Shown piece by piece: positions 1,345 to 62,626 of a stretch of 64,000 nt of DNA. The position numbers were made by a program, and so were the translations under genes. The notes under the pieces are model-generated. The model did no database searches. It was not told the DNA's origin and saw only the letters and a program-made list of their open reading frames with translations. The DNA is from Gari tellinella (lineage: Eukaryota; Mollusca; Bivalvia; Cardiida; Psammobiidae): positions 25,324,001-25,388,000 of the forward strand of contig OV277863.1 of the NCBI GenBank assembly GCA_922989275.2, written 5' to 3'. The stretch's first letter is position 1; every line of letters starts with the position of its first letter.

Positions 1345-1409
1345 CAAACAGTTTAGAACCAGATCAGACCCCGCACGATGCTGCGTCTGATCTGGATCAA
1401 AACTGTTTG
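1345..1409 (+). repeat. payload A hairpin, old copy
   Basis: CAAACAGTTTAGAACCAGAT and ATCTGGATCAAAACTGTTTG are the arms of a 65-bp imperfect palindrome with centre ACCCCGCACGATGCTGCGT. The chassis is not clear. The preceding GTGT resembles the GAGTGT that precedes payload A in TTAA-2 copies. Confidence 0.65.
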
Positions 1410-1490
1410 CATAAATATTTTAAAACCAGTAACAGGGCTCCAGATAAGGGGCGTTTTTCAAAAACTAAAATCTTTATTTCTGCTTTAAAC

Positions 1491-1557
1491 CCTATGGTGT
1501 CACTACTCGTTAGAATCGTCTTGAAGAGACGATTCTAATGAGTAGTAACACCATAGG
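1491..1557. repeat. payload C hairpin
   Basis: A 67-bp palindrome: arm CCTATGGTGTCACTACTCGT then TAGAATCGTCT, a short GAAG loop, and the mirrored arm with only two transition mismatches. Its inner stem GAATCGTCTT/AAGACGATTC recurs in the unrelated palindrome at 37800-37894. Confidence 0.75.
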
Positions 1558-1944
1558 ATTTGGTGCTGTACGAGTGAGAAAATGTTGTATTTGTTCAGAA
1601 TACTCCCTCTTATCTGGAGTCCTGCAGTAAGCGAATGAGTTAAGGTACAATCGCCCTTGAAAATTGGAACTTTTGGATTTTTTATGAGCGACTTATGGTA
1701 GCCCTGCCATTTCAAAGTGAATAAAATCTTAAAATTGTATGAGACAGATGTTGATGGAAAAACCATTTTTTCGAAAGCCATGATTAAGTAAATATTTATG
1801 TGATAATTAGGATTTTTCTTTTTAACCATACATTCAAATATCTAAAAACTTAAAATGTGATTTTTTTTTTCTTTTTTAAAAGACAACTTGCATTAGGTAT
1901 GAAGCTAGTTGGTTGTACATATTATAATTTCATTATATACTTAC

Positions 1945-2608
1945 TATCCTTGTCTTTCCATAGAATTGCTGCCATACCAAGGGAGAGAACACACCACTCT
2001 CTAAGATGAATCCTGTCAACCACAGACTTATCTCCCTTTTCCAACATTTCATCACCAACAAAACTACTCATTTGACCAAATCTCAAAAAGATACGTTTCA
2101 TACCAATAGAAGATAGTTTTTGTTCAAATATTCTTGCTAATTCCAATAGATATTTTTCTACAGACTGTTCATGTAAAGAAGTTTTCGTTCTAGTTTTCAA
2201 TAAATATGACATAGGTTGAACTATGTAATACAAGGTCATAAGCAATTTTCTTTTCACAAAATTCCCAATATCAGTACTAAATAATAAATTTAAAAGCAAT
2301 GAGATGTTTCTTAAGTTTGCATTGCACACAGATCTGGAGATTTCTTCGTTCTGATAAGTATTTAATAATTTTGCAATCTTATAGAATATGGAGACAAACT
2401 GGTACAGGAATTGGTCTGATACTTGTCTGTATTGGCCAGTGTTATACATGTGACCTACATGATTCACAGCTGACTGTAGTTTGGACAGAAAGTAGCAACA
2501 ATGCGGGTTAGTCTTTGACAGAAGGTCTCTGCACATTTCTAAATAGTAGGTGAGAGTTCCACTGCAGCTGCTGGTCATCAAAACTTCCTCGATCAAGGTA
2601 ACACCCTC
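1945..2608 (-). CDS. internal exon, possible MEI4-like meiotic protein
   Basis: A 664-nt open exon on the minus strand. The acceptor is a pyrimidine-rich TTGTATTTCTACAG ending at 2609. The donor is GTAAGTATA starting at 1944. The frame opens EGVTLIEEVLMTSS and ends in phase 1. No stop occurs over 221 codons, and composition is protein-like: leucine-rich predicted helices such as YYLEMCRDLLSK, FLYQFVSIFYKIAKLL and REWCVLSLGMAAILWK. No membrane segment or catalytic motif is visible. From memory, the order of hydrophobic helices and the closing LREWCVLSLGMAAIL block resemble the C-terminal half of vertebrate MEI4, which forms a complex with REC114 needed for meiotic DNA breaks. I cannot align them here, and another helical protein is possible. 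The exon is sure; the name is not. Confidence 0.7.
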
Positions 2609-3168
2609 CTGTAGAAATACAATATAGATAATACCTCTCTATTACAAACACTAACTTGAGTTCAATATCAGGTATCCAGGTAACACCCTCCTGTAGAAAT
2701 GTAATATAGATAATACCTCTCTAATACAAACACTAAATTGTGTTCAATATCAGGTATCAAGGTAACACCCTCCTGTAGAAATACAATATAGATAATACCT
2801 CTCTAATACAAACAATAAATTGTGTTCAATATCAGGTATCAAGGTAACACCCTCCTGTAGAAATACAATATAGATAATACCTCTCTAATACAAACAATAA
2901 ATTGTGTTCAATATCAGGTATCAAGGTAACACCCTCCTGTAGAAATACAATATAGATAATACCTCTCTATTACAAAAAATAAATTGTGTTCAATATCAGG
3001 TATCAAGGTAACACCCTCCTGTAGAAATATAATATAGATAATACCTCTCTATTACAAACAATAAATTGAGTTAAATATCAGGTATCAAGGTAACACCCTC
3101 CTGTAGAAATATAATATAGATAATACCTCTCTATTACAAACACTAACTTGTCTTAAATATCAGGTATT
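2598..3168 (-). repeat. 82-bp tandem array containing the splice acceptor
   Basis: Seven copies of the acceptor core (plus strand GTAACACCCTCCTGTAGAAA) occur at 2598, 2679, 2761, 2843, 2925, 3007 and 3089, one every 81-82 bp. Only the first is followed by the real exon. Each unit also carries ACCTCTCTATTAC, which matches the end of the TA-3 MITE. The array seems to have grown from an intron acceptor next to a TA-3 insertion. One extra unit (82 nt) would shift the frame. Confidence 0.85.
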
Positions 3169-3233
3169 TAAGGCAGGGGACTGCTTCAAGCAAAGCGTAA
3201 ATCAAATATTTCTGTTTTACTTTCACCTTGCTT
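3150..3233. mobile_element. TA-3 MITE remnant
   Basis: Follows the tandem array directly. CAGGTATTTAAGGCAGG and TTCTGTTTTACTTTCACCTTG are decayed arms of payload B as found in TA-3 copies. It supports a TA-3 origin of part of the repeat unit. Confidence 0.5.
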
Positions 3234-3529
3234 TAACCCATTACCACATAAATACGCTTTTTAACGCCGCTCAATTATTCAAATTTAAAAGAAAATGTGA
3301 TTCCTATATAGACCCCCACCACCGGTGGCGTGGGGGCATAAATAGTTCCTCTTTATGCAGTAATAAATATATACCATCAAAATATATTCTATATCCTAAA
3401 GATAGTAGCTTAAAGCAGGCTGAAAGTTAAGCAGAATGCGCCTTCAGGTGCCTTCTGCTTTACTTTCAACCTGCTTTAAGTGGTAATCGCTATCTTCAAA
3501 TCTAGAAACAGGCTATAGGGTTATGGGTT
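3233..3529 (+). mobile_element. TTAA-1 hairpin MITE
   Basis: Left end TTAA-CCCATTACCACATAAA. Payload B hairpin at 3409-3480 (GCAGGCTGAAAG / CTTTCAACCTGC). Right end GGGTTATGGGTTTAG, where the TTAA has mutated to TTTA. Confidence 0.75.
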
Positions 3530-3599
3530 TAGCTGTCACCTGTCATTGATACAATCAATCAGCCTTCTTTTTAGAGTTGTAATAGAGAGGGTTTACTGT
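3530..3599 (-). mobile_element. TA-3 MITE, right half
   Basis: Begins in the payload flank (AGCTGTCACCTGTCA) and ends GTAATAGAGAGGGTTTACTG-TA. It abuts the preceding TTAA-1 copy. Confidence 0.6.
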
Positions 3600-4011: not shown

Positions 4012-4254
4012 TTAACCCTTTCAACCCTACAATCCTCTGTAGAAATTACTTATTACAAATGCAAACAGTGTAGACCCTGATCAGAGGCCTCCTATAGGAG
4101 CCCTCTGATCAGTGTCTGCACTGTTTGATATTTTCATTCGTTTTTGTTGTCATAACCAAAAATTCAATAGAAGACTGATTCAAAATGATTGTACTAGAAG
4201 AGTCCAAAAGGATAATGAATACCCACAAGAGATATTTAGGGTTGAAAGGGTTAA
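4012..4254. mobile_element. TTAA-3 hairpin MITE
   Basis: TTAA-CCCTTTCAACCCTACA at 4012 and TAGGGTTGAAAGGG-TTAA ending at 4254. The palindrome at 4073-4129 runs from CAAACAGTGTAGACCCTGAT to a CTCCTATAGGAG apex and back to CTGTTTG. It keeps the outer CAAACAG and the GATCAGA of payload A but has its own apex. Confidence 0.85.
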
Positions 4255-24917: not shown

Positions 24918-25601
24918 CTACATGATTCAGGTATAGTTTTAAAGTTGCACACTTTTCGAAAAGAAACAACGCTGGCGAAGGTATTTTAATTTCTGATAGC
25001 CATGCATCTCTATCAAGTGGGATATTACCTCCCGGAATGTGGGTAGTTGTTTCTTACAGTACTAACAGTACTAACATTTGTACAGGTCCATAATCTGTAA
25101 AAAATAAATGACAATGTACAGAATATATACTTGTACAAATCAAACTGCCGTCGATTTCGATGTCGATTTTAGCAAGGTGCCGTACACAGGATTGAAAGGC
25201 TTTAGCAATATGCCGTTCACTAGCGTAGCAAGATTTCATTTTTAAAGCACATACGTCAAAAACAATAGTTAAAGTTTCATAAATGTCAATCAAGATAGCA
25301 TAAATTACTCGTTTCACATGAATATTTCTCTTATGCGATTATTAAAAACAAAATACAATGACATTTTGTCAGCAACCGTTGTTATTTGCCGGTACCAGGC
25401 AGCTTGTTTATACGTCTTACGAGAGTTTCTCTCGGTAAAACTGAAATGCTATAACATCAGCATGTTCCAAAAACATCACGCTTTAATGTAGTATTATTTT
25501 ACATATTGATCCTAGACATAAACTTCTAGAAAATCACGAAAACATAAGTGCACTGCATAGCGAATTGCTAACAACTCCACAAATCTCTCGACTCGCTGGT
25601 A

Positions 25602-25847
25602 CAGTGGAGAATCTGTTATTCTTTCCCGTTTAAACGCAAACGTACGCAAACGCAAAACACTAAAACGTAGAAAAGAACAACTTTTGGACAATTCTGATAA
25701 TTTTTGTTTATCTTGGTGGCAAACAGTTTGGAGCCTGATCAGACGCCGGGTTACCCGGCGTCTGATCTGGCTCCAAACTGTTTGCACTGCAAATAATAGT
25801 TTTAGCGTAAACGCGTTTATTGGGAAAGAATAACACATTCTCCACTG
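25602..25847. mobile_element. TA-1 hairpin MITE inside the right TIR
   Basis: CAGTGGAGAATCTGTTATTC to AACACATTCTCCACTG with TA on both sides. Payload A at 25727-25791 has stem GGAGCC and apex CCGGGTTACCCGG. The opposite TIR of the host element (22365-22371) reads TTGGTACCAG without the insert, giving the exact empty site. Confidence 0.95.
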
Positions 25848-26009
25848 TACCAATATCCTGTGTACGGGTATACACAGTGAGGGTGGGAAGGTCAAAATTA
25901 AAAAAAAATGACTTGCAAAATTAAACAAGCATGCATAAAGTTCTCGGTGGAATATACTGCAATACGTCGATGAGTTCAATACCAAAATTATACCATTACA
26001 CAATAAAAC

Positions 26010-37654: not shown

Positions 37655-37995
37655 TCATTGCTAACAGTTTGAAGCTTGATCAGATGCCGGGTTACCTGAT
37701 CAGATTCCAAACTGTTTACAACCCAGGGACCCGTTTCATAAAATTTCGTAGGACAAAAACGATCGTAAGTCTAAACTTTAAAATACATTTAATTTCTAAT
37801 TTCTCCATCTAATCCTGTCTTATTACATCTGTTTGGAATCGTCTTTTCAAGACGATTCCAAAAAGATGTTACAAGACAGGATTAGATGGAGAGATGAATA
37901 ATTATTGAGACTTTTATAATCTGACTTACGACAACATTTGTCGTGCGACGTTTTATGAAACGGGCACCGGATTCCAAACTGTTTACTACTCAGAT
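37655..37995. mobile_element. payload A remnant split by a payload C element
   Basis: Payload A (AACAGTTTGAAGCTTGATCA...CAAACTGTTTAC) at 37660-37719 is followed at 37726-37967 by an element with inverted ends GGGACCCGTTTCATAAAA and TTTTATGAAACGGGCACC. The 16-bp sequence ATTCCAAACTGTTTAC occurs on both sides, so it may be a long target duplication. Confidence 0.65.
37800..37894. repeat. payload C hairpin
   Basis: Arms TCTCCATCTAATCCTGTCTT...TTTGGAATCGTCTT, loop TTC, mirrored arm with a few mismatches. Inner stem shared with 1491-1557; outer arms unrelated. Confidence 0.8.
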
Positions 37996-38081
37996 GATGA
38001 GAAGTTCAGGAATTTCAAAGTAGTCATTTTCTGCACTTTAATATTGCTTTGTGTTTTCACAAATGTCTACATGTGATTGTA

Positions 38082-38330
38082 CAGGGAAGAAGACGCTATT
38101 CTTTCCCATTCAACCCCAAACGAAGCGCAAAAACGCATTCCAAATAAAATGTAGAAAATGACAAGTTTTTGACAATTCTGAGTGTTCCTTTCAATTTGAA
38201 TGGCAAACAGTTTGGAGCCTGATCAGACGCCGGGTTACCCGGCGTCTGATCTGGCTCCAAACTGTCTGCAATGGAAATAATAGTATTAGCATAAATGCGT
38301 TAATTGGGAAAAACAACGTCTTCTCCACTG
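38082..38330. mobile_element. TA-1 hairpin MITE
   Basis: Left end decayed (CAGGGAAGAAGACGCTATTC), right end ACGTCTTCTCCACTG-TA. Payload A at 38203-38267 has only one extra change near the end. Confidence 0.85.
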
Positions 38331-38390
38331 TATTTGTGTTTAATTCCGTTTGAACGGGAACTACTCATGCCCTGTTAATTGTAGCAGGCA

Positions 38391-39071: not shown

Positions 39072-39244
39072 CCGTAGTTTAGACTAAACTAACGCTGTTC
39101 CGAAGGTCATTCCAAACTAAAATGAAGTCACATCTCTCGCACACGAACACGAGCGATGTTATTTGCGTTGTTTTGCTCTGTTCTACCCGTTCGAGAAAAA
39201 AAATATAATTAACCTGAATGTACGAATGGAAAGACATAATTATC

Positions 39245-39487
39245 CAGTGGAGAGGACTTTATTCGTTCCCAAGAAACGAGTTTATCCTAAAACAATTATT
39301 TCCATTGCAAACAGTTTTGTGCCGGATCAGGCGCCGGGTAATCCGGCGTCTAATCAGGGACCAAACTGTTTGCAATTTTAAGATTAAATTGAACTTCAGA
39401 ATTGTTTAAGGCGTGTCATCTTCTACTTTTTTGCAATGCGTTTTCGTTTTGTTTACGTTTAAACGAGAAAGAATAACTTCTTCTCTG
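39245..39487. mobile_element. TA-1 hairpin MITE, reverse and decayed
   Basis: CCAGTGGAGAGGACTTTATTC at left, AGAATAACTTCTTCTCTG-TA at right. Payload A arms have several unpaired changes. Confidence 0.75.
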
Positions 39488-39777
39488 TACCTTTAAATCT
39501 AGGCTAATCACTGCTAAATCATGAATGGTCAAACTAGATCATATACAATGCACCAGTTTTAAGTTGCTCGTTATCCACAAATATTTACTTTTCACATAAT
39601 TATGCCTACAAACGGCATTTCATTACTTCTGAAGTGACTGTATTCAAAACATTGGAAAATAAAGTTAGACTAATATTGCCATAAATAACTCGGTAACGAG
39701 GCTTAGTGGAGCGAAACTCAGCAAAATATTGACATGATAACCGTACTAAAGATTAACTAAATGTTTGACTTTTGTTA
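39488..39777. other. no gene seen
   Basis: AT-rich spacer. Confidence 0.3.
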
Positions 39778-40132
39778 CAGTGCTCCCTCCCTACAACGGC
39801 CCTCTGAACTACGATTCCCTCTTTACAACAACGCTTGCCGCTGTTCCCCAAACAAGACAAGTATGTCCAACAGTTTCTCTTCTGCAATATCGTCTGCTTA
39901 AAATTGTCGTCTGACGTTTTTCTTAAAGTCACATATTGGACATTTTGACAAAAAAAACCATACTGATGAGTGACAAACAGCTTGAACCCAGATCAGACGC
40001 CGCGTGACGCGGCGTCTGATCTGGATTTAAGCTATTTGCAATTGTAAGCCAATTTCCCTCCCTATAACAACTCCCTCCGAACAACACACACAATCGTTGT
40101 CTCCCATTTGGTGTAGTAGAGAGGGAGCATTG
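39778..40132. mobile_element. TA-2 hairpin MITE
   Basis: CAGTGCTCCCTCCCTACAAC to GAGAGGGAGCATTG. Internal repeats TCGTCTGC; payload A at 39975-40039 (ACAAACAGCTTGAACCCAGA; apex CGCGTGACGCG). Confidence 0.85.
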
Positions 40133-40339
40133 TTTATGTTCTAGAGATTTGATAAATTTGATAGATATAATGCACATATACAGTAACACTTGTAATCAAC
40201 GATCAATCAATTAAAATATAATGAGCATTTCTAACCGCGTAGAAGCTTATTGTTGAACTCAACAGGGTCTGCACGTCGCCTTATTGATCATGTAATGGCT
40301 CAGTATTGTAACCCCTATATTGCCGTGACGTCATCAGTT

Positions 40340-40530: not shown

Positions 40531-40678
40531 CAATTATCGAGGGATAAAACCATATAATGGATAATGAATAGTTCCAAAAAGCAGTATGGATAGGTCAGCT
40601 GAATGTGTCTCTGTTTAGATAAGTTCCATGGTTCGATATACTCAGTATGGACATTTTGCAAATCACTGCACTGGGGTA

Positions 40679-40926
40679 CAGTGGAGAAAACATTATTCTT
40701 TCCCGTTTAAACGCAAAATGAAACGCAAACGCAAATCGCTAAAATGTAGGAAATAACCATTTATTTACATTTCTAATTATGTTTATTAATCTGAGCGGCA
40801 AACAGTTTGGAGCCTGATCAGACGCCGGGTTACCCGGCGTCTGATCTGGCTCCAAACTGTTTGTAATGGAAAAATTAGTTTTAGCGTGAACGCGTTTATT
40901 GGGAAAGAATAACGTTTTTCCCACTG
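40679..40926. mobile_element. TA-1 hairpin MITE
   Basis: CAGTGGAGAAAACATTATTC to AACGTTTTTCCCACTG, TA both sides. Payload A at 40798-40862 is nearly perfect. Inner TIR includes GTTTAAACGCAAA and its counterpart AACGCGTTTATT. Confidence 0.95.
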
Positions 40927-40942
40927 TAAGTGTAATGACATT

Positions 40943-41869: not shown

Positions 41870-42084
41870 TTAACCCTTTCACCCTCAATGACGTCATAAA
41901 TCGCATTTGCAAACAGTTTTTATCCTGATCAGACGCCGCGTAACGCGGCGTCTGATCAGAATCAAAACTGTTTGCCACTTATTTTGAAAATTACGTCAGT
42001 TATACTACATTCAATCTTAAGTTTGAAACGATATTGCAGACAACACTATTGAAACAGACGACAATATGGCGATGAAGGGGTAAA
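41870..42084. mobile_element. TTAA-2 hairpin MITE
   Basis: TTAA-CCCTTTCACCCTCAATG to GCGATGAAGGGGTAAA. Payload A at 41907-41972: TTTTTATCCTGATCAGACGC and the mirrored AATCAAAACTGTTTG. Confidence 0.85.
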
Positions 42085-43765: not shown

Positions 43766-44331
43766 CAGTAAAACCTCTCTATTACGACCACAGACTTGTG
43801 TAAATTATTAGGTGTGTACGACAGGTGGCTGCTTAAAGCAATGTGGCAGTAAAACAGAAAACTCCTATAAGAGCTTTCTGTTTTACTGTCACATTGCTTT
43901 AAGCAATTGGAGCTTTCTGGTTTTTTACTGTCATCTTGCTTTAAGCTGTCACCTGTCTTTTATACAGCGCTTCCTCTCTACAACGACACTCAATGGGCGA
44001 CAACAATTGTGTGCGTTGTTCGAAGGGAGTCGTTATAGGGAGGGAAATCGGCTTATATTTGCAAACAGCTTGAATCAAAGCTGTTTGTCACTCGTCAGGA
44101 AGTTGTTTCTGTCAAAATGTCCATTATGTAACTTTGAGAAAATAGCAGACGACACTTTTAAGCAGACGATATTGCAGCAGTAAAAGCGTTAGACATAATT
44201 TTCCCGTTTAGGCAATTGCGACAAGAGTCGTTGTAAGGAGGGAGTCGTTGTTGGGAGGGTCGTTGTAGAAAGGGAACACTGTACAACCAATTTGCTTTTG
44301 TTTTAGTGGTTGTAATATAGAGGTTTAACTG
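43766..44331. mobile_element. TA-3 hairpin MITE interrupted by TA-2
   Basis: CAGTAAAACCTCTCTATTAC to TAATATAGAGGTTTAACTG. Payload B at 43833-43907 (GCTTAAAGCAATGTGGCAGT...). After TTTTA the TA-2 copy at 43965-44281 intervenes; the TA-3 resumes at TACAACCAATTTGC. Confidence 0.85.
43965..44281. mobile_element. TA-2 hairpin MITE, nested, hairpin collapsed
   Basis: CAGCGCTTCCTCTCTACAAC to GAAAGGGAACACTG with TA each side. The payload is only CAAACAGCTTGAATCAAAGC followed by TGTTTG: most of the stem is deleted. Confidence 0.85.
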
Positions 44332-44379: not shown

Positions 44380-44600
44380 CAGAGGTTATCATACCCAGCT
44401 GTTTAACTCCTAACGCTTTGTAATATTCTCGTCTGCAACAATTGCCGTCTGCCAGTATTCTCATTTTTAAATTTTCTAAACTTTCTTTTTCAAAATATGA
44501 CCAGAGTGTCTACCAGTGTGGAATCTGATGAGACGCCGAGTTACGTGGCGTCTTGTCTTAATCTAAACTGTTTGCACTTATTGTCACGGTTTCGTTGCGA
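44380..44600. mobile_element. TTAA-2 remnant
   Basis: CAACAATTGCCGTCTGCC flank and decayed payload A (GTGTGGAATCTGATGAGACG...GGCGTCTTGTC...CTAAACTGTTTGC). Confidence 0.55.
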
Positions 44601-45244: not shown

Positions 45245-45572
45245 TAGGTTTGTTAGAATAATAGTTTGATTCAGATTAGAAATACGGTGAACGCTACTTT
45301 TACAGTAACACCTACTTTTACTACCAATATTGCTTCTACTACTACTTCTATTACTATAACAACACCTATTATTACTACTCGTACTGCTACTGTTACCGTT
45401 ATTTTATTCTACTACTACTACTACTGCTGCTACAACTGCTACTGCTGCACAATAATATCATAGTTTTCATTTATCGTGATTTTCTTTCTAAAGTTTGCCA
45501 TCTTGTTATTAGTCTTACTCCTTGTGTCAAAATGAATATTCGGGAACGGGTGAGGCTGGGAATGTATAAATA
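45245..45572. repeat. degenerate ACT/CTG trinucleotide region
   Basis: 45290-45455 is (ACT)n, (CTA)n and (CTG)n mixed with AACACC; no gene. Confidence 0.6.
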
Positions 45573-45914
45573 CAGTGTTCCCTCCCTACAACGACTCCCT
45601 CCTTAACCCTTACCCCTGTTTCCCCAAACAAGACAGTCATATCTAACGATTTCGTCTGTTTAAACTTGTCGGCTGCTGTTTTTCTCAAAATTGCATATAA
45701 GTGGACATTTTGATAGAATAAATATAATGACGAGTGACAAACAGCTTAAATCCAGATCAGACGCCGCGTTACGCGGCGTCTGATCTGGATTCAAGCTGTT
45801 TCCAAATGTAGCCAATTTCCCTCCCTATAACGACTCTCTCCGAACAACGCACATATTTTTTGTCCCCCATTTGCTGTCGTTGAAGGGGGGGGGGGGGGGG
45901 GGGGGGGAAAGCTG
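45573..45914. mobile_element. TA-2 hairpin MITE with expanded G tract
   Basis: CAGTGTTCCCTCCCTACAAC to a right end in which GAGAGGGAGC has become a 23-G run (45885-45907) before AAAGCTG-TA. Payload A at 45738-45802 is almost perfect. Confidence 0.9.
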
Positions 45915-46132
45915 TATAACTTTCAAAGCTAAGCCACAGACAGTTGTAAAGAGAGTCCAACACCAAAATGACTAAAACATTTGTAATTTTGATTTTTTTC
46001 TCGTCTTCTGTACGAGATGTCTGCATTGCATTATCTTTTTTCTGTCTTTGAATGATACTATGAGTTTTCAGAGGATTGTCGCTTAGCACCAAATTAAAAT
46101 GTATCCCTACCCCTATATTGGGTAGTCCCATA

Positions 46133-46381
46133 CAGTGGAGAATATGTTATTCTTTCCAGTTTGAATGCAAACGAAACGCACACGCATTGCAAAATGAAAT
46201 GTACAAATTGTCAACTCTTTGACAATTCTGAATGCTCATTTTATTCTGAGTGGCAAACTGTTTGGAGCCTGATCAGAGGCCGGGTTACCCGGCGTCTGAT
46301 CTGGCTCCAAACTGTTTTCAATGAAGATACTAGATTTTGCGTAAACGCGTTTAATGGGAAAGAATAACGTTTTCTCCGCTG
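46133..46381. mobile_element. TA-1 hairpin MITE
   Basis: CAGTGGAGAATATGTTATTC to AACGTTTTCTCCGCTG. Payload A at 46253-46317 has single unpaired changes (CAAACTG, AGAGGCC). Confidence 0.9.
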
Positions 46382-46678
46382 TAATATAGATTCGACAGTA
46401 TGACAATACGAGATTGAAACAGAATGCTATTTCACAGCAGGGCTATAATCGCTTATCAAATCTATCTATTTAACCCTTTATAACCGCACACATTAACTGG
46501 ATTTACCTGGATTCAGTTATGCTGGGCCTTACTAGGAGACAGATTATCAATAGTTATTGATAGTTTTGATAAATCACCGTATAATTAGATGGTATGGCAT
46601 CCCACTATAATTCGTTATGGTGTAGTACAATGGAACGTATGGAAGAAAATTTGCCCACTTTTACAGTTGGAATATAAG
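46382..46678. other. no gene seen
   Basis: AT-rich spacer. Confidence 0.3.
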
Positions 46679-48083: not shown

Positions 48084-48214
48084 ACATATTTATTTGCATA
48101 TATTGTATATACAAGTCGAAGAAAATTAAACTACAAGTTATAACAATATAAAGCCCTCTCCCCAGATAATTGCATACATAAAGTGTTATGGCATATACAA
48201 AAACAAATCATCTA

Positions 48215-48539
48215 CAGTGCTCCCTCCCTACAACGGCCCTCCCAACATCGATTCCCTACTCACACGGACGCATGTCGCTGTTCCCAAAACAAGAAATTAT
48301 GTCCAGCATTTTTCGTCTGCAATATCTTCTATTTAACATTGCCGTCTGCTGTTTTTCTCAAATTCACATATTCGACATTTTGACAGAAAAAAAACATAAT
48401 GAAGAGTTACTTGACGTCTGATCTGGATTCAAGATGTTTGCACACATAATCCAATTTCCCTCTCCATAACGACTCCCTCCAAACAACGCATATACGGTTT
48501 TTGTTTCCCATTGGGTGTCGTTGTAGAAAGGGAGCGCTG
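48215..48539. mobile_element. TA-2 hairpin MITE, left hairpin arm deleted
   Basis: CAGTGCTCCCTCCCTACAAC to AAAGGGAGCGCTG, TA both sides. GAAGAGTTACTTGACGTCTG shows the right arm only. Confidence 0.9.
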
Positions 48540-48924
48540 TATATAAATTCCTTTCTATATAACAGGAATGCTTGAATATACTCAAATAATGCTACTCATA
48601 GAGTTGAAAGCACTATGACTGTTTAATTCGTTTTCTTAATACCATTTAAAATATGTTGGCCCGGATGAATTGGTATACTGATATAACAAGATGTATATTG
48701 GCCTCAGGAGACATTGTTGCTAGGAGGTTTTTACCCCTTACCATTATTGTCTGCAATATCGTTTCAAAGTTAGATTTAAGGCAGTATGACTGAGGAAATT
48801 TCGAAACGCGTGTAAAACAGTTTTAATCCTGAACAGACGCCGCGCCGACACATCACAAAGAAAATCTACTGAAATGTTGTGCAAATCCGTAACATTATTG
48901 TTGGATAAAACTTTGTTAATTTCA
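48540..48924. mobile_element. spacer with TTAA-2 remnant
   Basis: TTATTGTCTGCAATATCG at 48743 and CAGTTTTAATCCTGAACAGA at 48820, then the apex ends at GCCGCGCC with no right arm. Confidence 0.5.
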
Positions 48925-49990
48925 TTTACAAATACAAATACAAAGCATTTATATAGCGCAAAAGTGTATAAGAAATAATGCGCTGTACACTATCAGAACA
49001 AAACATCCCATAAAACATTCACAAACTTCTAAATACAGTAAAACCTCGCTATTACGACCACTAAAACGAAGGCTAATTGAGTGTATAATAGACAGGTGAC
49101 AGCTTAAAGCAAGGTGACAGTGAAACAGAAAGCTCCTATAGGAGCTTTCTGTTTCACTGTCACCTTGCTTTAAGCGGTTACCTATCGTAAACACCCTAAT
49201 AATTAACATAATTTAGTGGTCGTAATAGAGAGGTTTTACTGTAATTCAGCAATAATGTTAAAGATATATACTACGTCAAATACATTCATTATATACAATA
49301 TGCTTTTAAAGAAATTGGTATAGTTACTATTGAGTTTAGTCTGTTTAACACATTTATTTACAAAACAATCTAAGTGTTAAACTGTTGAAACAAGTACGTC
49401 TTTAGTTTTGACTTAAACTGCTTTTCATTTGTAATATTCTTCAAATAATTTGGTAATGAGTTCCACCACTGAGGTCCAACCACTGCTAGAGATCTATCAG
49501 CAAGTTTAGTGTTTGTTGTTGGAAAGTCAAATATATGACTTGACGAGGATGATCTCAGTCTTTGTCTACACGTATTGTTTTTTTGGTTGAAACAAACATG
49601 TCACAAAGGTATGAAGGTGCTGTGCCATTCACGACACGAAACATGGTCACAATCACTTTGAACATAATTCTGGCACAAATCGGAAGCCAGTGTAGAGATC
49701 TTAGAGTCTCCATACTAGGTTGTTCGTATGTGGCACCAGTGACAATGCGAGCAGCATGATTCTATACCCATTGTAATTTGCCAAGTTGGTAAATTGGAAT
49801 ATAGTGAATAGTCCATTGCAGATGTCCAGATGTGAATGTATTAGACAATGAACGAGTATTTCTGTGGACGTCTGAGTAAGATGTTTTCTGATTGTCTTTA
49901 GGTTTCTTAATTGCATATTGGCTATTTGACACTTTCTGGAAATGTACTTATCAAAACTCAAGGTACTGGTCATCTGTACCCCCAAATCTC
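48925..49990 (-). pseudogene. CR1/Crack-like LINE 3' part
   Basis: Minus-strand frames read STLSFDKYISRKCQIANMQL, LRNLKTIRKHLT, then LRSLHWLPICARIMFKVIVT, APSYLCDM, ADRSLAVVGPQWWNSLPNYL and FKSKLKTYLFQQF. This is the typical C-terminal tail of CR1-type reverse transcriptases, with frameshifts. The 3' UTR carries TTGCGCTATATAAATGC and (CAAATA)n. A TA-3 MITE sits in the 3' UTR. Confidence 0.85.
49036..49241. mobile_element. TA-3 hairpin MITE, intact
   Basis: CAGTAAAACCTCGCTATTAC to TAATAGAGAGGTTTTACTG with TA at 49034-49035 and 49242-49243. Payload B at 49101-49173: GCTTAAAGCAAGGTGACAGT...AGCTCCTATAGGAGCT... with perfect arms. Confidence 0.95.
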
Positions 49991-50122: not shown

Positions 50123-50361
50123 TTAACCCTTTCACTCTCAATGACACTTAACGCGTTTGCAAACAGTTTGGATCCTGAGCAGACGCCGCGTAACGCGGCG
50201 TCTGGTCAGGATCCAAACTGTTTGACACTCGTATTGAAATTTCTTCAGTCAGACTTTTTTTAACTTTGAAACGACATTGCAGAAAACAAAATTGAAGCAG
50301 ACGACAATGAAACGGTGAAGGGGTAAAAATGTCACGAAATATTTTGCAGTGAAAGGGTTAA
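50123..50361. mobile_element. TTAA-2 hairpin MITE, best copy
   Basis: TTAA-CCCTTTCACTCTCAATG to CAGTGAAAGGG-TTAA. Payload A at 50159-50223 with GGATCCTGAGCAGACGCC and apex CGCGTAACGCG. ACGACATTGCAGA and GCAGACGACAATG internal repeats. Confidence 0.9.
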
Positions 50362-53042: not shown

Positions 53043-53688
53043 CTCCTTAATATGCTGGTGGTAACTTAGTGGTAACTTTGATACGATCAACTCGGCGACT
53101 CCTCTAGATCCAAACAGTTTGAAATCTTGATCAAATTAATTGAAGAAACATCAGCTCATCTTTATTATAATTGACACAGACAACACCTTATGGCAGGCGA
53201 GAACAACAGAACGTGCTTAAGGCTAATCTGAATGTCGTGTGCTTCAAAATACATGTAGTATTTTCCTTTAGATTATTCTTTTGATAAAACATGTTCTTCT
53301 GAATAAAAACAGAGTAAGCAAAATATCTACCTGTACTAAATTCTCAATAAAGTCAATTTATGTTCCATCAAGAGGTAAAATTCAAGACACAAACGATAAG
53401 TTATTTTTTGGTTTTACTAAAATATTAACTGAAATAAATCTTTGTAACATTTCCTCATCAAATTGTTACAAAGTATATGCAATAAAACAGTATTGTACCT
53501 TGATGTCATAATGTGCACGTGTATTACTGGTCAGCATGGATAAGAATTAATATATAAAGTATTGTGTAACTTGTTTTCTTAGCCATGCTTATAACTTATT
53601 AATTTATTATGCTATAATATGTGTATATATATTATGATTGTATGTGAAAAAAATGGAATAAGTATAGTTTAAATTATTATGCACCAGG
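53043..53688. other. no gene seen
   Basis: AT-rich; nothing recognised. Confidence 0.35.
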
Positions 53689-53880
53689 GGCCCGTTTTAC
53701 TAAACTACTTACGCAAAATTTTTGCGTAAGTCAACATTTTAAATTTTAATTTACATTTTTTATTATCACTTGCTACAAACAGCTAATAGCCAGATCTCTG
53801 GCTATTAGCTGTTTGCGAACGTTAATGATCGAAAAATAAGAGTAAAACGATTTTGACTTACGCAAACATTCTATATTTTC
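53689..53880. mobile_element. hairpin element of a separate chassis
   Basis: GGCCCGTTTTACTAAAC start; TTGCGTAAGTCAA and TTGACTTACGCAA face each other. The centre at 53776-53815 is a perfect 40-bp palindrome, CAAACAGCTAATAGCCAGAT and its complement. It keeps the CAAACAG/CTGTTTG base of payload A. Confidence 0.7.
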
Positions 53881-54013: not shown

Positions 54014-54380
54014 TATATTACAATGCCGTTGATAGCGTTCTAAAGGATCTTTTATTGCCAACATATAAACCACACTGGTTAAGACTCGATAATCTTAGAT
54101 GCTTCAAATCAGAATTTTCAAATGCATATTGCCGCAATATTTTATGAACGATGACAGATTTATGTTACAATGGTTTCCTTCGCTGGGTCTAATACCGGGT
54201 AATTCGACATAATATCAAGATTAAATATTGGAAATGGGTTTCGTTTTTTTGTAAGTATCTGGCCCATAGCTTGCGGTGAATTGGTACTTTTTAAATCTCT
54301 TCTTCTCTTTGATACTGATAGAAAAATGTATGTTATATTGGTTTTAATTGTAACTAAAACAATTACAACCACTGTATATA
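54014..54380. other. no gene seen
   Basis: AT-rich spacer. Confidence 0.3.
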
Positions 54381-54734
54381 CAGTGTTCCCTCTCTACAAC
54401 GGTCCTCCCAACAACGACTCCCTCCTTACAATGACCCTTGTCGCAATTGCCTAAGCGGGAAAATTATGTCTAACGCTTTTACTGCTGCAATATCGTCTGC
54501 TTAAAATTGTCGTCTGCTATTTTTCTCAAAGTTGCATAATGGATATTTTGATAGAAACAACTTCCTGAAGAGTGACAAACAGCTTGAATCCAAACAGCTT
54601 GGATTACGCGGCGTCTAATCTGGATTCAAGCTGTTTGCAAATGTAAGCCGATTTCCCTCCCTATAACGAATCCCTCCGAACAACGCACACACTTGTTGTC
54701 GCCCATTGAGTGTCGTTGTAGAGAGGGAGCGCTG
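54381..54734. mobile_element. TA-2 hairpin MITE
   Basis: CAGTGTTCCCTCTCTACAAC to AGAGGGAGCGCTG, TA both sides. Left arm rearranged (CAAACAGCTTGAATCCAAAC, then AGCTTGGATTACGCGG), right arm normal. Confidence 0.9.
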
Positions 54735-54825
54735 TAGTGTTTCCCTAAATTACTGTCACACCGGACAGATTCGCACACTTCAAAACTGTATGACGTGCTT
54801 AACCCTCTCATCGCCAAAGTTTGCC

Positions 54826-55357
54826 GTTTACATACAGGTCTGCCATAAGTTTCTCATAAAGTGCTAAGATTTCCAAATTTTCAAGCGCGAATTTAGGTAC
54901 AGTGGAGAATCTGTTATTCTTTCCCAATAAACGCGTTTACGCTAAAACTATTATTTGCAGTGCAAACAGTTTGGAGCCAGATCAGACGCCGGGTAACCCG
55001 GCGTCTGACCAGGCTCCAAACTGTTTGCCACATAGATAAACAAGAATTATCAGAATTGTCTAAAAGGTGTTCTTTTCTACGTTTTAGTGATTTGCGTTTG
55101 CGTACGTTTGCGTTTAAACGGGAAAGAATAATAGATTCTCCACTGTATCCTATACCGTTAACCCTTCCGCTGCGTAACGTGGCGTCTGATCTGGATCTAA
55201 ACTGTTTGACAAATTGACACCCATATCGACGTTTCCTAAGTAAAAAACGCATAAATTTCCAAAAGAAATACGAACATTTCGGAAATATCCCGAAGTCCGG
55301 AGAAATTTAGAAATATCCGAAGATATTCGGGAATCCCGGGGAAATGGCAGCCGTGCG
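54826..55357. mobile_element. CAGG-chassis MITE interrupted by TA-1
   Basis: CAGGTCTGCCATAAGTTTCT, AAGATTTCCAAATTTTCAAG left; TATCCGAAGATATTCGGGAA and GGGGAAATGGCAGCC right. The payload A right half remains at 55165-55208. TA-1 inserted at 54900-55145. Confidence 0.6.
54900..55145. mobile_element. TA-1 hairpin MITE, reverse
   Basis: CAGTGGAGAATCTGTTATTC to AATAGATTCTCCACTG, TA both sides. Payload A at 54963-55027, apex CCGGGTAACCCGG. Confidence 0.95.
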
Positions 55358-56149: not shown

Positions 56150-56189
56150 GTTAGTGCACATGTATTGTTTCATTTAGTGTTCTCTCTTA

Positions 56190-56563
56190 TACTCTACGCT
56201 CCCTATAACAGCCCTCCTAACAACGATTCCCTCCTTACAACAGCGCTTGTCGCTTTTCCCAAACCAAGACAGTTATGTCTAACGGTTTCACTCACCGTTT
56301 CATGCAATATAGTCTGCTTGAAATTGTCGTCTGTGTTTTTATCTTAAAGTTACATATTAGTGAACATTTTGATAGAAGAAATATAATGACGAGTGACAAA
56401 CAGATTGAATTCAGATGAGACTCCGCGTTACGCAGCGTCTGATCTGGATTCAAGATTTTTGCAAATATAAGCCAAGTAATTATTTTCCCTCTCTAAAACA
56501 ACTCCACGAACAATACACGCAACCTTTGTCTCCTAGTGGGTGTTATTGTGGACAGGAGCACTG
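56190..56563. mobile_element. TA-2 hairpin MITE
   Basis: ACGCTCCCTATAACAGCCCT left (decayed), GACAGGAGCACTG-TA right. Payload A ACAAACAGATTGAATTCAGA, apex CGCGTTACGCAGCG. Confidence 0.8.
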
Positions 56564-56629
56564 TATGTTATATATAGTAGTTTACCTACAGACAGCAAAA
56601 CATTTGTTAACTCATTAACCCCTGAAACT

Positions 56630-57086: not shown

Positions 57087-57299
57087 TTAACTCTCTTACC
57101 GCCAAAATATCGTCTGAATTGGTGGTGTCGTCTGCAATATTTTTCAAAGTCAGATTTAGTGCTGTTTTGACTGAAGCAATGTCCTTACGAATGACAAATT
57201 GTTTGGATCCTGATCAGACGCCGCGTTACGCGGCGTCTGATCAGGATCCAAACTGTTTGTAAAGTCGTATCTTGGCGCCGTTGGCAGTGAAAAAGTTAA
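57087..57299. mobile_element. TTAA-2 hairpin MITE
   Basis: TTAA-CTCTCTTACCGCCAAAAT to GGCAGTGAAAAAG-TTAA. Payload A at 57196-57260 nearly perfect, apex CCGCGTTACGCGG. Confidence 0.9.
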
Positions 57300-57328
57300 A
57301 TGTAGAGAAAAACGTCTTCTTCACTGTA

Positions 57329-57576
57329 AAGTGGAGACAACGTTATTCTTTCCCAATAAACGCGTTTACTCTAAAACTATTATTTCCATTACAAACAGTT
57401 TGGAGCCAGATCAGATGCCGAGTAACCCGGTGTCTGATCAGACTCCAAAATGCTTGCCACTCAGATTAAAAAAAACTAATTAGAAATGTCAATAAATGGT
57501 AATTTCCTACATTTTAGCGATTTGTGTTTGCGTTTCGTTTGCGTTTAAACAGGAAAGAATAACGTTTTCTCCACTG
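57329..57576. mobile_element. TA-1 hairpin MITE, reverse
   Basis: AAGTGGAGACAACGTTATTC to AACGTTTTCTCCACTG-TA. Payload A arms have several unpaired transitions (GATGCCGAG, GGTGTC). Confidence 0.85.
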
Positions 57577-57619
57577 TACAAGAAGGGCAAAAGTAAAGCA
57601 GAAAGTGCCTGTTAATTTT

Positions 57620-57846: not shown

Positions 57847-58113
57847 TTAAGCTGCTACCTGTATAACAACATATACGTAATCGAATACATATAGCATTCA
57901 TATATTTTGAAATCAGGACGTTGTCTTTAATAAGAATAATTTTGAATTTTGCATATAACCGCATACGAACTCTTTTAGTTGACTTTATACAATGTGTTTT
58001 GTCTGCGAAAGGGTGAAACCCGACTATCAAATTTGGGGGTGAAAGGTTAAAATTGTAGACACTTCATAACATGTTTGGTAACACTGGTAAAATCTGCTAT
58101 GTCGCCGAGTATA

Positions 58114-58356
58114 CTGTGGCGAAGATGTTATTCTTTCCCGTTTAAATGCAAACGAAACGCAAACGCAATGCACTCAAATGTTAAAAACTGTTGACAATTC
58201 TGACTATTCATGTTAATCTGAGTGGCGAATAGCTTGACGCCTGTTCAGACGCCGCCGGGTTACCTGGCGTCTGATCTGGCTTCAAACTGTTTGCAATGGA
58301 AATAATAGTTTTAGCGTTAACGCGCTTATTTGGAAAGAATAACGTCTTCTCCACTG
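58114..58356. mobile_element. TA-1 hairpin MITE
   Basis: CTGTGGCGAAGATGTTATTC to AACGTCTTCTCCACTG-TA. Payload A left arm has changed (GCGAATAGCTTGACGCC) and gained GCC near the apex. Confidence 0.85.
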
Positions 58357-58369
58357 TAGAACTTCTTAA

Positions 58370-58817: not shown

Positions 58818-59595
58818 ATCACTTCACCGGAGTCCCCCTCTGTCTTAATTGTTGTGATTATTGATAGAAACAGGAAAACTTTCATTCAAAACAGATTCAT
58901 TAATCAAGACTTATTAAAGATAATACGGGCATTCTTGGCCAGATTAGGTTCTAAATCGTTCGATACATACAGGGCAAATATATGTGAAGAAAGCATGCCT
59001 TTTGTATACCAGTATAAAAGGATGTGAAGACTTAACCTAGGGTATCTTAACTACTGGGACAACGGGAAACTATTTGCAATAATAACTATATATACCAGCA
59101 CATATCGGCTGTGTTAAATGGATAGACTTTGGATGATCTATCGAAATAAACGCCCTTACATCGTAACACAAAGCATTTAACAATAGCAAACAGTATACGC
59201 TCATGAGACAAGTTGCGGGCGTCTCATCAGAATCTACACAGTTTGCTATTTTGTTTAATATGTATGGACAAATTCCTTGTATATCTATAATGAAATCTTC
59301 AAGCAAACACATAGGGAGACTTCATTGCAATATCCAGGTATAAATAGGTAAATCAAAATAGACCAAAATTCGTTTCGGAAGTGTTTTTGATTAAATACTC
59401 AAATTACCTTCTTCTTTTTCTTGAAAAGAAAAAGAAAATACACAAAAACTTTCATTTCAAACGTCGACTACAATGGCACTATTAGACAGTTTCGATACAG
59501 ATCAAATGTCGTGATGCTCGGCGTCTCATTAAGATCCTAACTAGAACCTCATATCAATATTTCTTCAGTCACAACAATACGCAAATTTCTAAGTA
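58818..59595. other. no gene; two decayed hairpins
   Basis: 59185-59243 (AGCAAACAGTATACGCTCAT...CAGTTTGCT) and 59485-59545 (GACAGTTTCGATACAGATCA...) keep traces of payload A with GGGCGTCTCATC or GGCGTCTCATT. Confidence 0.45.
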
Positions 59596-59956
59596 CAGCG
59601 CTCCCTCTCTGCAATGGCCCTCCCAAAAACGATTCCCTCCTAACAACGACCCGTACCACTGTTTCCCCAAACAAGACTTCGTTACATCTAACGATTTTAC
59701 TGCTGAAATATCGTCTGCTTAAACTTGTCGTCTGCTTTTTTTTCAAAGTTACATATAAGTGGACATTTTGATAGAATAAATATAATGACGAGTGACAAAC
59801 AGCTTACATCCAGATCAGACGCCGCGTTACCCGGCGTCTGATCTGGATTTAAGCTGTTTGCAAATGTAACCAATTTCACTCCCTATAACGACTCTTTCCG
59901 AACAACGCGCACAATTTTTGTCTCCACTTGGGTGTCGTTGTAAAGAGGGAGCACTG
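59596..59956. mobile_element. TA-2 hairpin MITE
   Basis: CAGCGCTCCCTCTCTGCAAT to AGAGGGAGCACTG, TA both sides. Payload A at 59797-59861, apex CGCGTTACCCGG, so one arm reads CCGCG and the other CCGGG. Confidence 0.9.
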
Positions 59957-60024
59957 TACATGTATGAGCAATAACGCAGTCGCCAAATTTAGGGCGATGA
60001 TAGTGTGTCGGTTAGCAAGTGTGC

Positions 60025-60216: not shown

Positions 60217-60280
60217 TAGGAATATTTAACTTTCTTAAACCTTATACCTATTCACTCACTGACAGTATATCTGCTTAAAG

Positions 60281-60590: not shown

Positions 60591-60676
60591 AATGTCATTA
60601 AAAAGACATCAGTGGGCTCCTACAGGTTCTGTACTGCTCGTCATTTTACAATACTGTATACTGTTAAGGACGACCC

Positions 60677-60929
60677 TTAACCCTTTACCTTATAGAAGCG
60701 ACTTTTAGCACATTCATTTTATTCATCCGCTGAAGAAAATAGTTCCATATTATACCGTAATGAATATGTGTCATATTAAATATTTTCCTTATTCTAGCAG
60801 TTGATAGCTTAAAGCAGGCTGAAAGTAAAGCAGAATGCGCCTTAGGGCGCATTCTGCTTTACTTTCAACCTGCTTTAAGTAGTCACATATCATCAATACT
60901 AGAAACAATGCTATCAGGTAAAGGGTTAA
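60677..60929 (+). mobile_element. TTAA-1 hairpin MITE, CCCTTTACC subfamily
   Basis: TTAA-CCCTTTACCTTATAGAAG to CAGGTAAAGGG-TTAA. Hairpin at 60808-60879 perfect except for the usual C/A pair; apex GCGCCTTAGGGCGC. Confidence 0.95.
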
Positions 60930-61203
60930 TACTGTGAAATTCTAAACTGGTATTGTCCATGGATGTGAAATTTCAGGGGTGAGTGAGTTACATGCTTAGG
61001 ACGCCATTACTCACACATGTTATACTTACTGTAAGAAACAATCAATGTTCTATCGTTTTTAATCGGCTAATTAACATTAACATTTTTACAACGGGTATCT
61101 AAATGTAGAAGGAACGTCCTTCTATTGCTGTTCCATTCTACCCATTCCAAAAACGTCATACCTAATAAAAGTAGCATATTTCTAGCTTTTTTATGAACAA
61201 AGA
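60930..61203. other. no gene seen
   Basis: Spacer; GAAGGAACGTCCTTC at 61109-61123 is a small palindrome. Confidence 0.35.
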
Positions 61204-61300
61204 TGGACACTAAAAGCAGGTTGAAAGTAAAGCATAATGTGCCTTAAGGTGCATTCTGCTCTAATCCGTTGCTTTAAGCTACCATCTGCTAGGAAATATT
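61204..61300 (-). mobile_element. TTAA-1 hairpin fragment, reverse
   Basis: CTAAAAGCAGGTTGAAAGTA...GTGCCTTAAGGTGCATTCTG, right outer arm decayed; GCTACCATCTGCTAGG flank. Confidence 0.65.
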
Positions 61301-61533
61301 ACGCCACATTCCTTTCACTAACATAGGGCGGGCACAGGATGAGCCTGCATAACGGACTATTTTCACAACGTGATATATTGTACTAGATATACCAAGGTGA
61401 ATTTGTTCTTTGTTTATAGAGATGAATTCACGTGTCATGTTAGAATAGACAGATCGCAACTAAAAGCAGGATGAAAGTAAAACAGTAATAGATCTATACC
61501 ATGCGTGCTATGTTGCACCATATTTCTCCTGGT

Positions 61534-61778
61534 TTAACCCATTACCCTAAATCCTGATTCTAGCTTTGAAGACAGATGACCACTTTAAGCAGGCTGAAAG
61601 TAAAGCAGAATGTGCCTTAAATTGTTCTTTATTTTTAGCCTGCTTAAAGCTACCACCTATAAGGATATAGAATATGCTTCTTGTGGTGCATATTTTGTAC
61701 TGTAAATTGGAACAATTTTCTTCAGTGGAAGAATAAATTAGAGATGTAAAACGGCGTATTTATGGGGTAATGGGTTAA
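61534..61778 (-). mobile_element. TTAA-1 hairpin MITE, reverse
   Basis: TTAA-CCCATTACCCTAAATCC to TATGGGGTAATGGG-TTAA. Inner right arm replaced by AAATTGTTCTTTATTTTTAG. Confidence 0.85.
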
Positions 61779-62058
61779 AGGAGTAGTATCTATAAACGTA
61801 AATTGAACATCACAACAACTTTTTCGTTTATGCAATCGTGATTTTAAATGGTTGCTATGGCAAAAAGGGTTGACATAATAACATGATTGTGTAATGCCAG
61901 GTCATAAACTATAGTATGCATTATGGCTTAATAAACCTGCCAAAGGTATTATTTGCAGTTTGCTATTTATGACATATATAAAATTATGTTACAGTAAAAT
62001 CGGTGTTAAATGGTCATTCAGTTAAGATCCGTATCAGTCGCTAAATGCATGCCATTGC

Positions 62059-62311
62059 TTAACCCTTTCCCTTATAGAAGCGCCTTTTAGCGAATATGAT
62101 TTATTCATCCGCTGAAGAAAATAGTTCCAGTTTATACCCTCATGAACAATTACCATTACAAATATTGTATATAGCCTGACAGATTTTAGCTTAAAGCAGG
62201 CTGAAAGTAAAGCAGAATGCGCCTTAGGGCGCATTCTGCTTTATTTTCAACCTGCTTTAAGTAGTCACATATCTTCAATACTAGAAACAATGCTATCAGG
62301 TAAAGGGTTAA
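62059..62311 (+). mobile_element. TTAA-1 hairpin MITE, CCCTTTCCC subfamily
   Basis: TTAA-CCCTTTCCCTTATAGAAG to CAGGTAAAGGG-TTAA. Close sister of 60677-60929, including ACTAGAAACAATGCTATCAG. Confidence 0.95.
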
Positions 62312-62439
62312 TGCAGGACAAAAGTAACAAAAATAAAGGTCCTGAAAGTAATAAAGAAAAAAATCTGCATAACGTCTGTCTTTCATTGAACCGCGTCCGT
62401 TTTGTAAGTTTGTTTTATAAGTGGCCTCTTAGCACATTC

Positions 62440-62626
62440 GACGAGTAAAATTCGAAAAAGTTTGGATCCTGATCAGACGCTGCATAATGCGGCGTCTGAT
62501 CAGGAGCCAAGCTGTTTGACACTCGTATCGACATTTCTTCAGTCAAAACAGCCATAAACCTGACTTAAACAATATTACAGACGACGCTACCAATGCAAAC
62601 AATATTTTGGCCGTAAAAGGGTTAAA
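62440..62626. mobile_element. TTAA-2 hairpin MITE
   Basis: Payload A AAAGTTTGGATCCTGATCAG...GATCAGGAGCCAAGCTGTTT, apex GCTGCATAATGCGG (both arms changed), then TGGCCGTAAAAGGG-TTAA. Confidence 0.75.

Follow-up and report, generated by a model that had tools for sequence, protein, structure and literature searches.

A hairpin core carried by miniature inverted-repeat transposable elements with TA, TTAA and CAGG chassis in the bivalve Gari tellinella, and the probable replacement of their ends

Miniature inverted-repeat transposable elements (MITEs), which are short non-autonomous DNA transposons, are usually classed by their ends. MER6 (MER6A), a MITE of the Tc1/mariner type, contains the V conserved domain of short interspersed elements (SINEs), and SINE families share a conserved central domain (V, CORE, Deu and others), as set out in the relevant part of PMC6887750. 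In bivalves, the pearl family (CvA, DTC84) comprises modular MITEs, and DTC84 has a conserved palindrome near a repeat junction, according to the section of PMC5139131 that describes them. For mPing and mPong, internal sequence affects the frequency of transposition, as reported in the corresponding part of PMC9921582. The present analysis concerns a palindrome, termed hairpin A, at the centre of several kinds of MITE in a 64,000-nucleotide stretch of the Gari tellinella genome (contig OV277863.1, positions 25,324,001 to 25,388,000; hereafter, the window). It is probably an old MITE core, the ends of which have been replaced several times by way of nesting and end loss, and which has been kept in the source elements for its structure as DNA. 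In the open-licence literature no description was found of a hairpin core common to TA, TTAA and CAGG chassis, and a text search of the literature for hairpin strings returned matches that look unrelated by title.

Hairpin A is a palindrome of ~65 bp, CAAACAGTTTGGAGCC(T)GATCAGACGCCGGGTTACCCGGCGTCTGATC(T)GGCTCCAAACTGTTTG. A profile hidden Markov model built on eight window copies was searched against 288,088 bases, consisting of the window, 20 stretches of 10 kb (contigs C1-C10 at 5 Mb and at 30 or 40 Mb, a choice that is not random among the 80 contigs) and eight loci fetched by a hairpin word. At E<0.01 the window contains 39 copies, 33 of which score at least 25 bits and span at least 51 of the 65 positions. 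The palindrome is where a preliminary description of the window, which gave at least 25 copies, had placed it. The total was 208 (window 39, the 20 stretches 137, the fetched loci 32), and the reversed-sequence control yielded none. Their spread is uneven: the final 27 kb of the window (37000-64000) has 35 copies and the preceding 37 kb has 4.

Throughout the 1.6-Gb genome, the exact arm GATCAGACGCC occurs 582,391 times (291,405 + 290,986), against 51 (32 + 19) for the same word read backwards, and two exact 31-mer apical hairpins occur 98,579 and 26,078 times, with no occurrence of their controls. The density in the 20 stretches, 0.685 copies per kb (bootstrap 0.53-0.86), extrapolates to ~0.85-1.37 million copies per genome if these stretches are representative, and to 0.53-0.91 million when near full-length copies of at least 25 bits alone are counted. 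The six chassis consensuses defined below occupy 31,531 of the 200,000 bases of the stretches (15.8%; reversed control, none); judged from this 200-kb sample, hairpin A elements make up about a sixth of the genome. Long hairpins in general are present beyond chance, because a scan for any class found 45 in the window and none in one mononucleotide shuffle of it. Folded as single-stranded DNA, the four hairpins tested reach -37 to -43 kcal/mol (z -14 to -19). The hairpin patterns had no match in viral and prokaryotic sequence records, which do not cover other animals.

Clustering of the flanks gave six chassis with a common layout of long side, hairpin and short side. The consensus of TA1 is 251 bp long with TACAGTGGAGAA ends and that of TA2 is 362 bp with TACAGTGTTCCCTC ends, and those of TTAA2, TTAA3, TTAA4 and TTAA5 are 226-251 bp with TTAACCC/TTAACTC ends (built from six copies for TTAA3, six for TTAA4 and four for TTAA5). 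The carriers named in the preliminary description, TA-1, TA-2, TTAA-2, TTAA-3 and CAGG, are all present in the window. Its TTAA-3 (4012-4254) is a further type, different from the clustered TTAA3, and the variant hairpin there and at 63575 is near-perfect with other stem letters. The CAGG carrier exists in the window from 53685 with its hairpin shortened to 40 bp; a CAGG chassis with hairpin A lies at L028:2169-2414, and the intact arm of the CAGG-borne hairpin A occurs 3,454 + 3,507 times genome-wide (control, 0). No flank label could be given on either side to 67 of the 208 copies, and 82 fall in no chassis. The TA2 flank label (27 copies) rests on the long side and, because this long side is also found in TTAA2, some of the 27 are not TA2; constraint was measured on the 16 copies found from both flanks. 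Elements found by paired ends hold hairpin A in 41 of 41 cases for TA1, 13 of 15 for TA2, 6 of 6 for TTAA2 and for TTAA3, 4 of 4 for TTAA4 and 1 of 1 for TTAA5.

By the criteria tested, the hairpin elements are MITEs. Individual copies show inverted ends, the six consensuses are only 226-362 bp long, and copy number is high; elements of this length would have no room for a transposase gene and thus presumably lack coding capacity. Target duplication and precise insertion are seen overall, with TTAA2 failing by motif count. The target motif is found at both predicted ends in 32 of 41 TA1 and 8 of 16 TA2 copies, as for Tc1/mariner or pogo elements with a TA target and CAGT-like ends. TTAA stands at both predicted ends in 4 of 6 copies of TTAA3, 1 of 4 of TTAA4, the single copy of TTAA5 and none of 6 of TTAA2, for which widening the search to 6 bp on either side of the ends gave the motif in 1 of 6. 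The TTAA target is used by Kolobok as well as piggyBac. Unoccupied sites were sought by joining the flanks of 61 copies; of 74 candidates, these were the ones with a target motif no more than 6 bp from the predicted end, a criterion that is easily satisfied by chance for TA. A match spanning the junction was obtained for 14 of the 61, several of them weak or gapped; 3 of these 14, all TA1 (L016 3813, L019 5401 and window 57327), match their own neighbourhood alone and should not count. Joined flanks matched for 2 of 5 TTAA3 and 2 of 2 TTAA4 copies, some with gaps. A clear empty site for the TA-1 element at 30256-30506 is found at 35772-35893 (93% over 122 bp, no gap), and a TTAA3 element inserted within an element of the C1 type, described below, gave a joined-flank match of 88% over 119 bp, again with no gap.

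Flank alignments of the chassis consensuses, scored against 300 shuffles, divide the carriers. The hairpins of TA1, TA2 and TTAA2 are 89-94% identical (TA1-TTAA2, 92%). The long sides of TA2 and TTAA2 align over 102/105 bp, to one base from the hairpin (z=11.6), and further long-side alignments were obtained for TA2-TTAA5 (z 12.8), TTAA2-TTAA5 (z 5.1) and TTAA3-TTAA4 (z 4.4), with a weak one for TA2-TTAA3 (z 3.1). TA2, TTAA2 and TTAA5 therefore have ~72-105 bp of long side in common beyond the hairpin. The short sides of the TTAA chassis also align (z 2.8-7.7), the TTAA3 values having been computed on a 41-bp piece of a short side that measures 78 bp in full, beside a hairpin of 66. Because TA-2, TTAA-2 and TTAA-5 share the long side and the TTAA ends are akin, independent capture of the hairpin is not needed among them. 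The sharp drop-off expected at the core edges fails on the long side, where these three remain alignable, and sharp edges on both sides of the hairpin were rejected. The whole long side of TA1 scores z<1 against the other chassis, except for TTAA3, which aligns out of register (z=3.8). A flank test anchored on the hairpin (15 pairs at several lengths, uncorrected for the number of tests) detected likeness of TA1 to TA2 on the long side at 40 nt (0/1000 shuffles) and on the short side at 24 nt (5/1000), and a marginal likeness to TTAA2 (40/1000 and 19/1000 at 24 nt). TA-1 thus shows a trace of similarity, visible solely beside the hairpin, and CAGG flanks do not clearly match. The earlier view that the flanks of the families do not match holds, with this reservation, for TA-1 and CAGG and is wrong for TA-2 and TTAA-2; likewise, alignment outside the hairpin, which had been named as the outcome that would make cassette exchange superfluous, is seen in the TA-2/TTAA group and not for TA-1 or CAGG.

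How ends may have changed is best resolved in TA-2. The alignment of TA2 with TTAA5 runs from the second base of TTAA5 (terminal TAAC) through the hairpin to ~12 bp past it, and the best TTAA-end-like site inside TA2 is at position 91, the same place as the start of the TTAA5 homology. A TTAA-type element is thus recognisable in TA-2 from its own terminus through the hairpin, with the other end gone. The appearance of TA-2 is that of a TTAA element that inserted into a TA element and lost one end. In TTAA2 a further TTAA-like end, degenerate in sequence, is found 34 bp in from the present one (p=0.0098), close to position 37, where homology with TA2 starts. These arrangements are read as layers of an onion: a hairpin element came to lie inside another element, or was given new terminal sequence on the outside, and the inner terminus decayed. 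The preliminary description had offered, as one possibility, a system for building MITEs around a cassette; this has no direct support, and nesting with end loss would explain TA-2. Self-nesting is also seen at present, with hairpin elements inside other hairpin elements at L010 4589-4838 and L017 6751-7000.

Exchange of cores is suggested by other hairpins. The sample has 169 long hairpins. Of these, 86 do not coincide with any listed A copy, although the one at window 53776 is the shortened A, and 63 of the 86 were assigned by reading to class C (50) or class B (13). Consensuses of the B and C classes rest on 6-9 copies. When CAGG elements with hairpin A (CAGG_A) and with hairpin B (CAGG_B; subtype B1 in this comparison) are compared, the flanks match (z 12.9, 9.0, 16.2) and the hairpins are unrelated (z -1.0). 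The reverse is seen for C1 (TACAGTAAAACC ends) and C2 (TTAACCCTTTACC ends), in which the hairpins match (z 17.9) and the flanks are unrelated (z 1.0 or less); hairpin C is carried by chassis with TA-like ends and by chassis with TTAA-like ends. The B1 and B2 hairpins match (z 14.2), with flanks that are weakly similar (2.5, 1.8, 3.0). Exchange is therefore supported both ways, by one chassis with alternative cores and by one core on different chassis, and the A/B and C1/C2 comparisons are the strongest evidence that more than one combination of core and chassis has arisen. The similarity of the left side of CAGG_A to TTAA4 (z=5.5) was not taken as proof of a larger cassette, the sequence being AT-rich and partly that of the chassis; a CAGG_B flank also scores 29. 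C1 and C2 form one class (28/37 in register, 0/5000 shuffles). Compared with the hairpin A profile, C2 is reached by 5 of 5000 shuffles, C1 by 208, C1b by 361 and B by 227-358. Because the likeness of C2 to the A profile is beyond chance, A and C may be distant relatives; C2 supports such a common origin, and C1 does not clearly do so.

Pairing in hairpin A has been kept while its letters changed. Among ten hairpins (six consensuses and four single copies), 97.3% of cells are paired, 15 of 30 pairs are changed on both sides, and two-sided changed cells number 38, compared with 10.6 in shuffles and 5 at most in slid structures; a single cell among the 300 is G.U. Almost no change is seen in the basal CAAACAG and the central GATCAGA, and changes in the intervening stretches come in pairs. 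Among the 121 copies of full length, T-A stands at pair 14 in 43, G-C in 39, C-G in 6 and no pairing in 33; pair 30 is C-G in 45, G-C in 42, A-T in 9 and unpaired in 25. These tallies are of copies, not of independent changes. Pair 17 is T.T or A.A in about half of copies, and T.T in the TA1, TTAA3 and TTAA5 consensuses.

Private mutations in TA1 (41 copies, identified by their flanks) are as frequent in the hairpin (0.0232) as in the flanks (0.0227), which indicates that resident copies decay freely. Variants common to at least two copies are, by contrast, 4.6-fold less frequent in the hairpin (0.024 vs 0.111, ratio 0.22; half-samples 0.05-0.28), and 0 of 20,000 block permutations were as low. 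We conclude that the hairpin is held constant at the level of the source elements and not in resident copies, an effect that is clear in TA1 and weak in TA2; TTAA3 and TTAA4 (6 and 4 copies) were too few for the test. Within copies, the arms are rarely corrected in place, because one-sided changes far exceed two-sided ones: TA1 has 85 one-sided, 5 two-sided compensatory and 3 two-sided unpaired cells (2.3 two-sided expected), and TA2 has 77, 9 and 9 (8.9 expected). In-place gene conversion as the main source of pairing was rejected on the TA1 count of 85 one-sided against 5 compensatory cells.

If the old core has been retained while ends were replaced, the hairpin would be the durable part of an old MITE group: an element bearing it would insert into another MITE and lose an end, and the composite would then be mobilised by the outer ends. 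Because the same core lies inside elements with different ends, it seems to outlive the ends that move it. Source elements may be selected for the hairpin formed by the DNA, which could aid mobilisation or replication, although this is the least certain step; a hairpin aiding excision, copying or repair would be useful to any chassis, which would explain its reuse by different end types. A bolder extension, which we regard as rather doubtful, is that a few DNA hairpins are portable amplification modules, that a chassis acquiring one gains mobility or copy number, that unrelated transposases converge on them, and that selection acts on the core and not on the ends, the core having in this way come to fill about a sixth of the genome. 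Several observations weigh against an old core with replaced ends. The inner TTAA end of TA2, taken alone, is not significant by shuffling (p=0.09), and the TA1-TA2 likeness right beside the hairpin also fits plain divergence. Constraint in TA2 is weak (ratio 0.68; 16 copies, p=0.013, half-samples 0.19-1.01), its hairpin scoring 0.0762 against 0.0746 in the best other 65-bp window, and complete pairing is not needed, since 60 of the 121 full-length copies have a mismatch at pair 17. CAGG_A is known from two copies (L028, which was compared, and a second in the window). No unoccupied TA-1 or TA-2 chassis was found in the sample, and the two hairpin-less TA-2 elements keep a remnant. Finally, no transposase has been linked to any chassis, autonomous elements with the same ends not having been searched for.

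Part of this evidence would also fit a single old family, in which all A carriers derive from one element and flanks diverged and ends drifted without any change of chassis. The common long-side sequence of TA-2, TTAA-2 and TTAA-5 (z 5.1-12.8), the shared TTAA ends, the TA2-TTAA3 value of z 3.1 and the likeness of TA1 to TA2 on both hairpin sides (40 nt, 0/1000; 24 nt, 5/1000) are all as expected from such descent. However, TA and TTAA targets and their ends point to different transposase types, TA-2 has an internal TTAA-type terminus where homology begins, and CAGG elements with matching flanks carry either hairpin A or hairpin B, so that a single family without chassis change is unlikely. 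Still less credible is a hairpin that is itself the mobile unit and inserts into MITEs; an inverted repeat in several chassis and the differing hairpins of the CAGG chassis would suit it, but by eye no common target duplication surrounds the hairpin in the six consensus elements, similarity continues past the hairpin on the long side of several chassis, and the sample offers no chassis without an occupant, all of which make it very improbable.

Other alternatives concern the origin of the pairing. Template switching between the arms could perfect palindromes and produce paired changes without any function, and two-sided changes with G.U in 1/300 cells are what arm copying would leave. Three copies of hairpin A without the apex, reduced to palindromes of 38-40 bp on three different chassis (window 53776-53815, L025 2517-2554 and L012 9821-9858), include two that read as precise deletions between two GATC words, the slippage product expected of hairpins. 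The 85 one-sided against 5 compensatory cells in 41 TA1 copies indicate, however, that resident correction is rare, and template switching leaves the conserved hairpin letters between TA1 subfamilies unexplained; as the origin of the pairing it is thus somewhat unlikely. Selection on RNA, with a transcript fold of ~65 nt serving as a small-RNA precursor or protecting the element, agrees with the structure kept across chassis and with the similar length and shape of microRNA precursors. Nevertheless, G.U is nearly absent between chassis, G.U and A.C show no bias in copies (TA1 28:21, TA2 18:20, TTAA3 3:3, TTAA4 3:3), and the window has no Rfam match at gathering thresholds, so that, although paired changes are present, the hairpin does not have the features of a structural RNA family. 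RNA selection by strand bias was rejected on the lack of a G.U excess over A.C, and a role as RNA appears quite improbable. The scarcity of G.U, the lack of bias and the apex deletions together favour DNA rather than RNA, in keeping with retention of the old core for its DNA structure.

Table 1. Hairpin elements and hairpins in the window (strand "." = unassigned)
Feature	Position	Strand	Hairpin and remarks
TA-1, complete, TACAGTGGAGAA ends	25600..25849	+	hairpin A 25720-25784
TA-1	30256..30506	+	hairpin A 30377-30441; empty target copy 35772-35893
TA-1	38080..38332	+	hairpin A 38204-38268
TA-1	39243..39492	-	hairpin A 39308-39372
TA-1	40677..40928	+	hairpin A 40799-40863
TA-1	46131..46383	+	hairpin A 46254-46318
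TA-1	54898..55147	-	hairpin A 54963-55027
TA-1	57327..57578	-	hairpin A 57392-57456
TA-1	58112..58358	+	hairpin A 58226-58293
TA-2, TACAGTG-TCCCTC ends	39776..40134	+	hairpin A 39974-40038
TA-2	43963..44283	-	hairpin largely deleted
TA-2	45571..45900	+	hairpin A 45738-45802
TA-2	48213..48541	+	hairpin half decayed, 48376-48440
TA-2	54379..54736	+	hairpin A 54576-54637
TA-2	56188..56565	+	hairpin A 56397-56461
TA-2	59594..59958	+	hairpin A 59796-59860
TTAA-2, TTAACCCTTTCACT ends	50123..50361	-	hairpin A 50160-50224
TTAA-2 hairpin A	41910..41974	-	short side left
TTAA-2 hairpin A	57195..57259	+	
TTAA-2 hairpin A	62454..62518	-	
TTAA-5 hairpin A	44510..44574	+	
TTAA-3 of the preliminary description, TTAACCCTTTCAACCCT ends	4012..4254	.	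variant hairpin 4062-4127
Variant hairpin	63575..63640	.	flanks resembling the 4012-4254 element (by eye)
CAGG chassis (CAGGGGCCCGTTTTACTAAAC)	53685..53815	+	hairpin A shortened to 40 bp, 53776-53815
CAGG chassis	37724..37971	.	hairpin B in place of A (swap partner)
Hairpin B, subtype B2	1487..1561	.	1 of 7 copies with consensus CAGGGCTCCAGATAAG ends
Chassis with TACAGTAAAACCTC ends	49031..49246	.	hairpin C, subtype C1, 49094-49183
Hairpin C, subtype C2	47542..47611	.	1 of 9 copies with consensus TTAACCCTTTACC ends

Further class C hairpins occur in the window at 60808-60879, 62190-62261 and elsewhere. The window also contains open frames with reverse transcriptase domains (PF00078) at 7288-8991 (-) and 19389-21116 (+), and tandem arrays at 2592-3167 (period 82 bp), 11697-12707 (305 bp), 15580-16510 (319 bp) and 27206-28247 (364 bp).

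If cores outlive their ends and switch chassis, an end-based classification breaks up single lineages and conceals selection that acts inside the elements. Hundreds of thousands of copies, few chassis and alternative cores on one chassis make the role of MITE interiors in amplification testable. The central domain of SINEs, which are retrotransposons, is conserved as sequence. The present elements resemble SINEs in having a conserved middle and unrelated ends, but they are DNA elements and part of their conservation is pairing. The modules of pearl elements are described, in the section cited above, as repeats like satellite monomers, whereas the module shared here is a hairpin, a distinction drawn from description only; one TA-2 copy overlaps a short array of period 15-17 (44223-44274). 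For mPing and mPong, the corresponding part of PMC9921582 claims neither a core common to unrelated chassis nor a role for a hairpin. MER6 is the nearest precedent seen, and the likeness lies in a conserved internal domain within a DNA-transposon chassis, a composite origin and amplification by new ends. In MER6 the domain is that of SINEs, in a single MITE and a variant of it, and the relevant part of PMC6887750 mentions no hairpin, whereas the elements of G. tellinella have a hairpin, three end types, several hairpin classes and a chassis with alternative cores.

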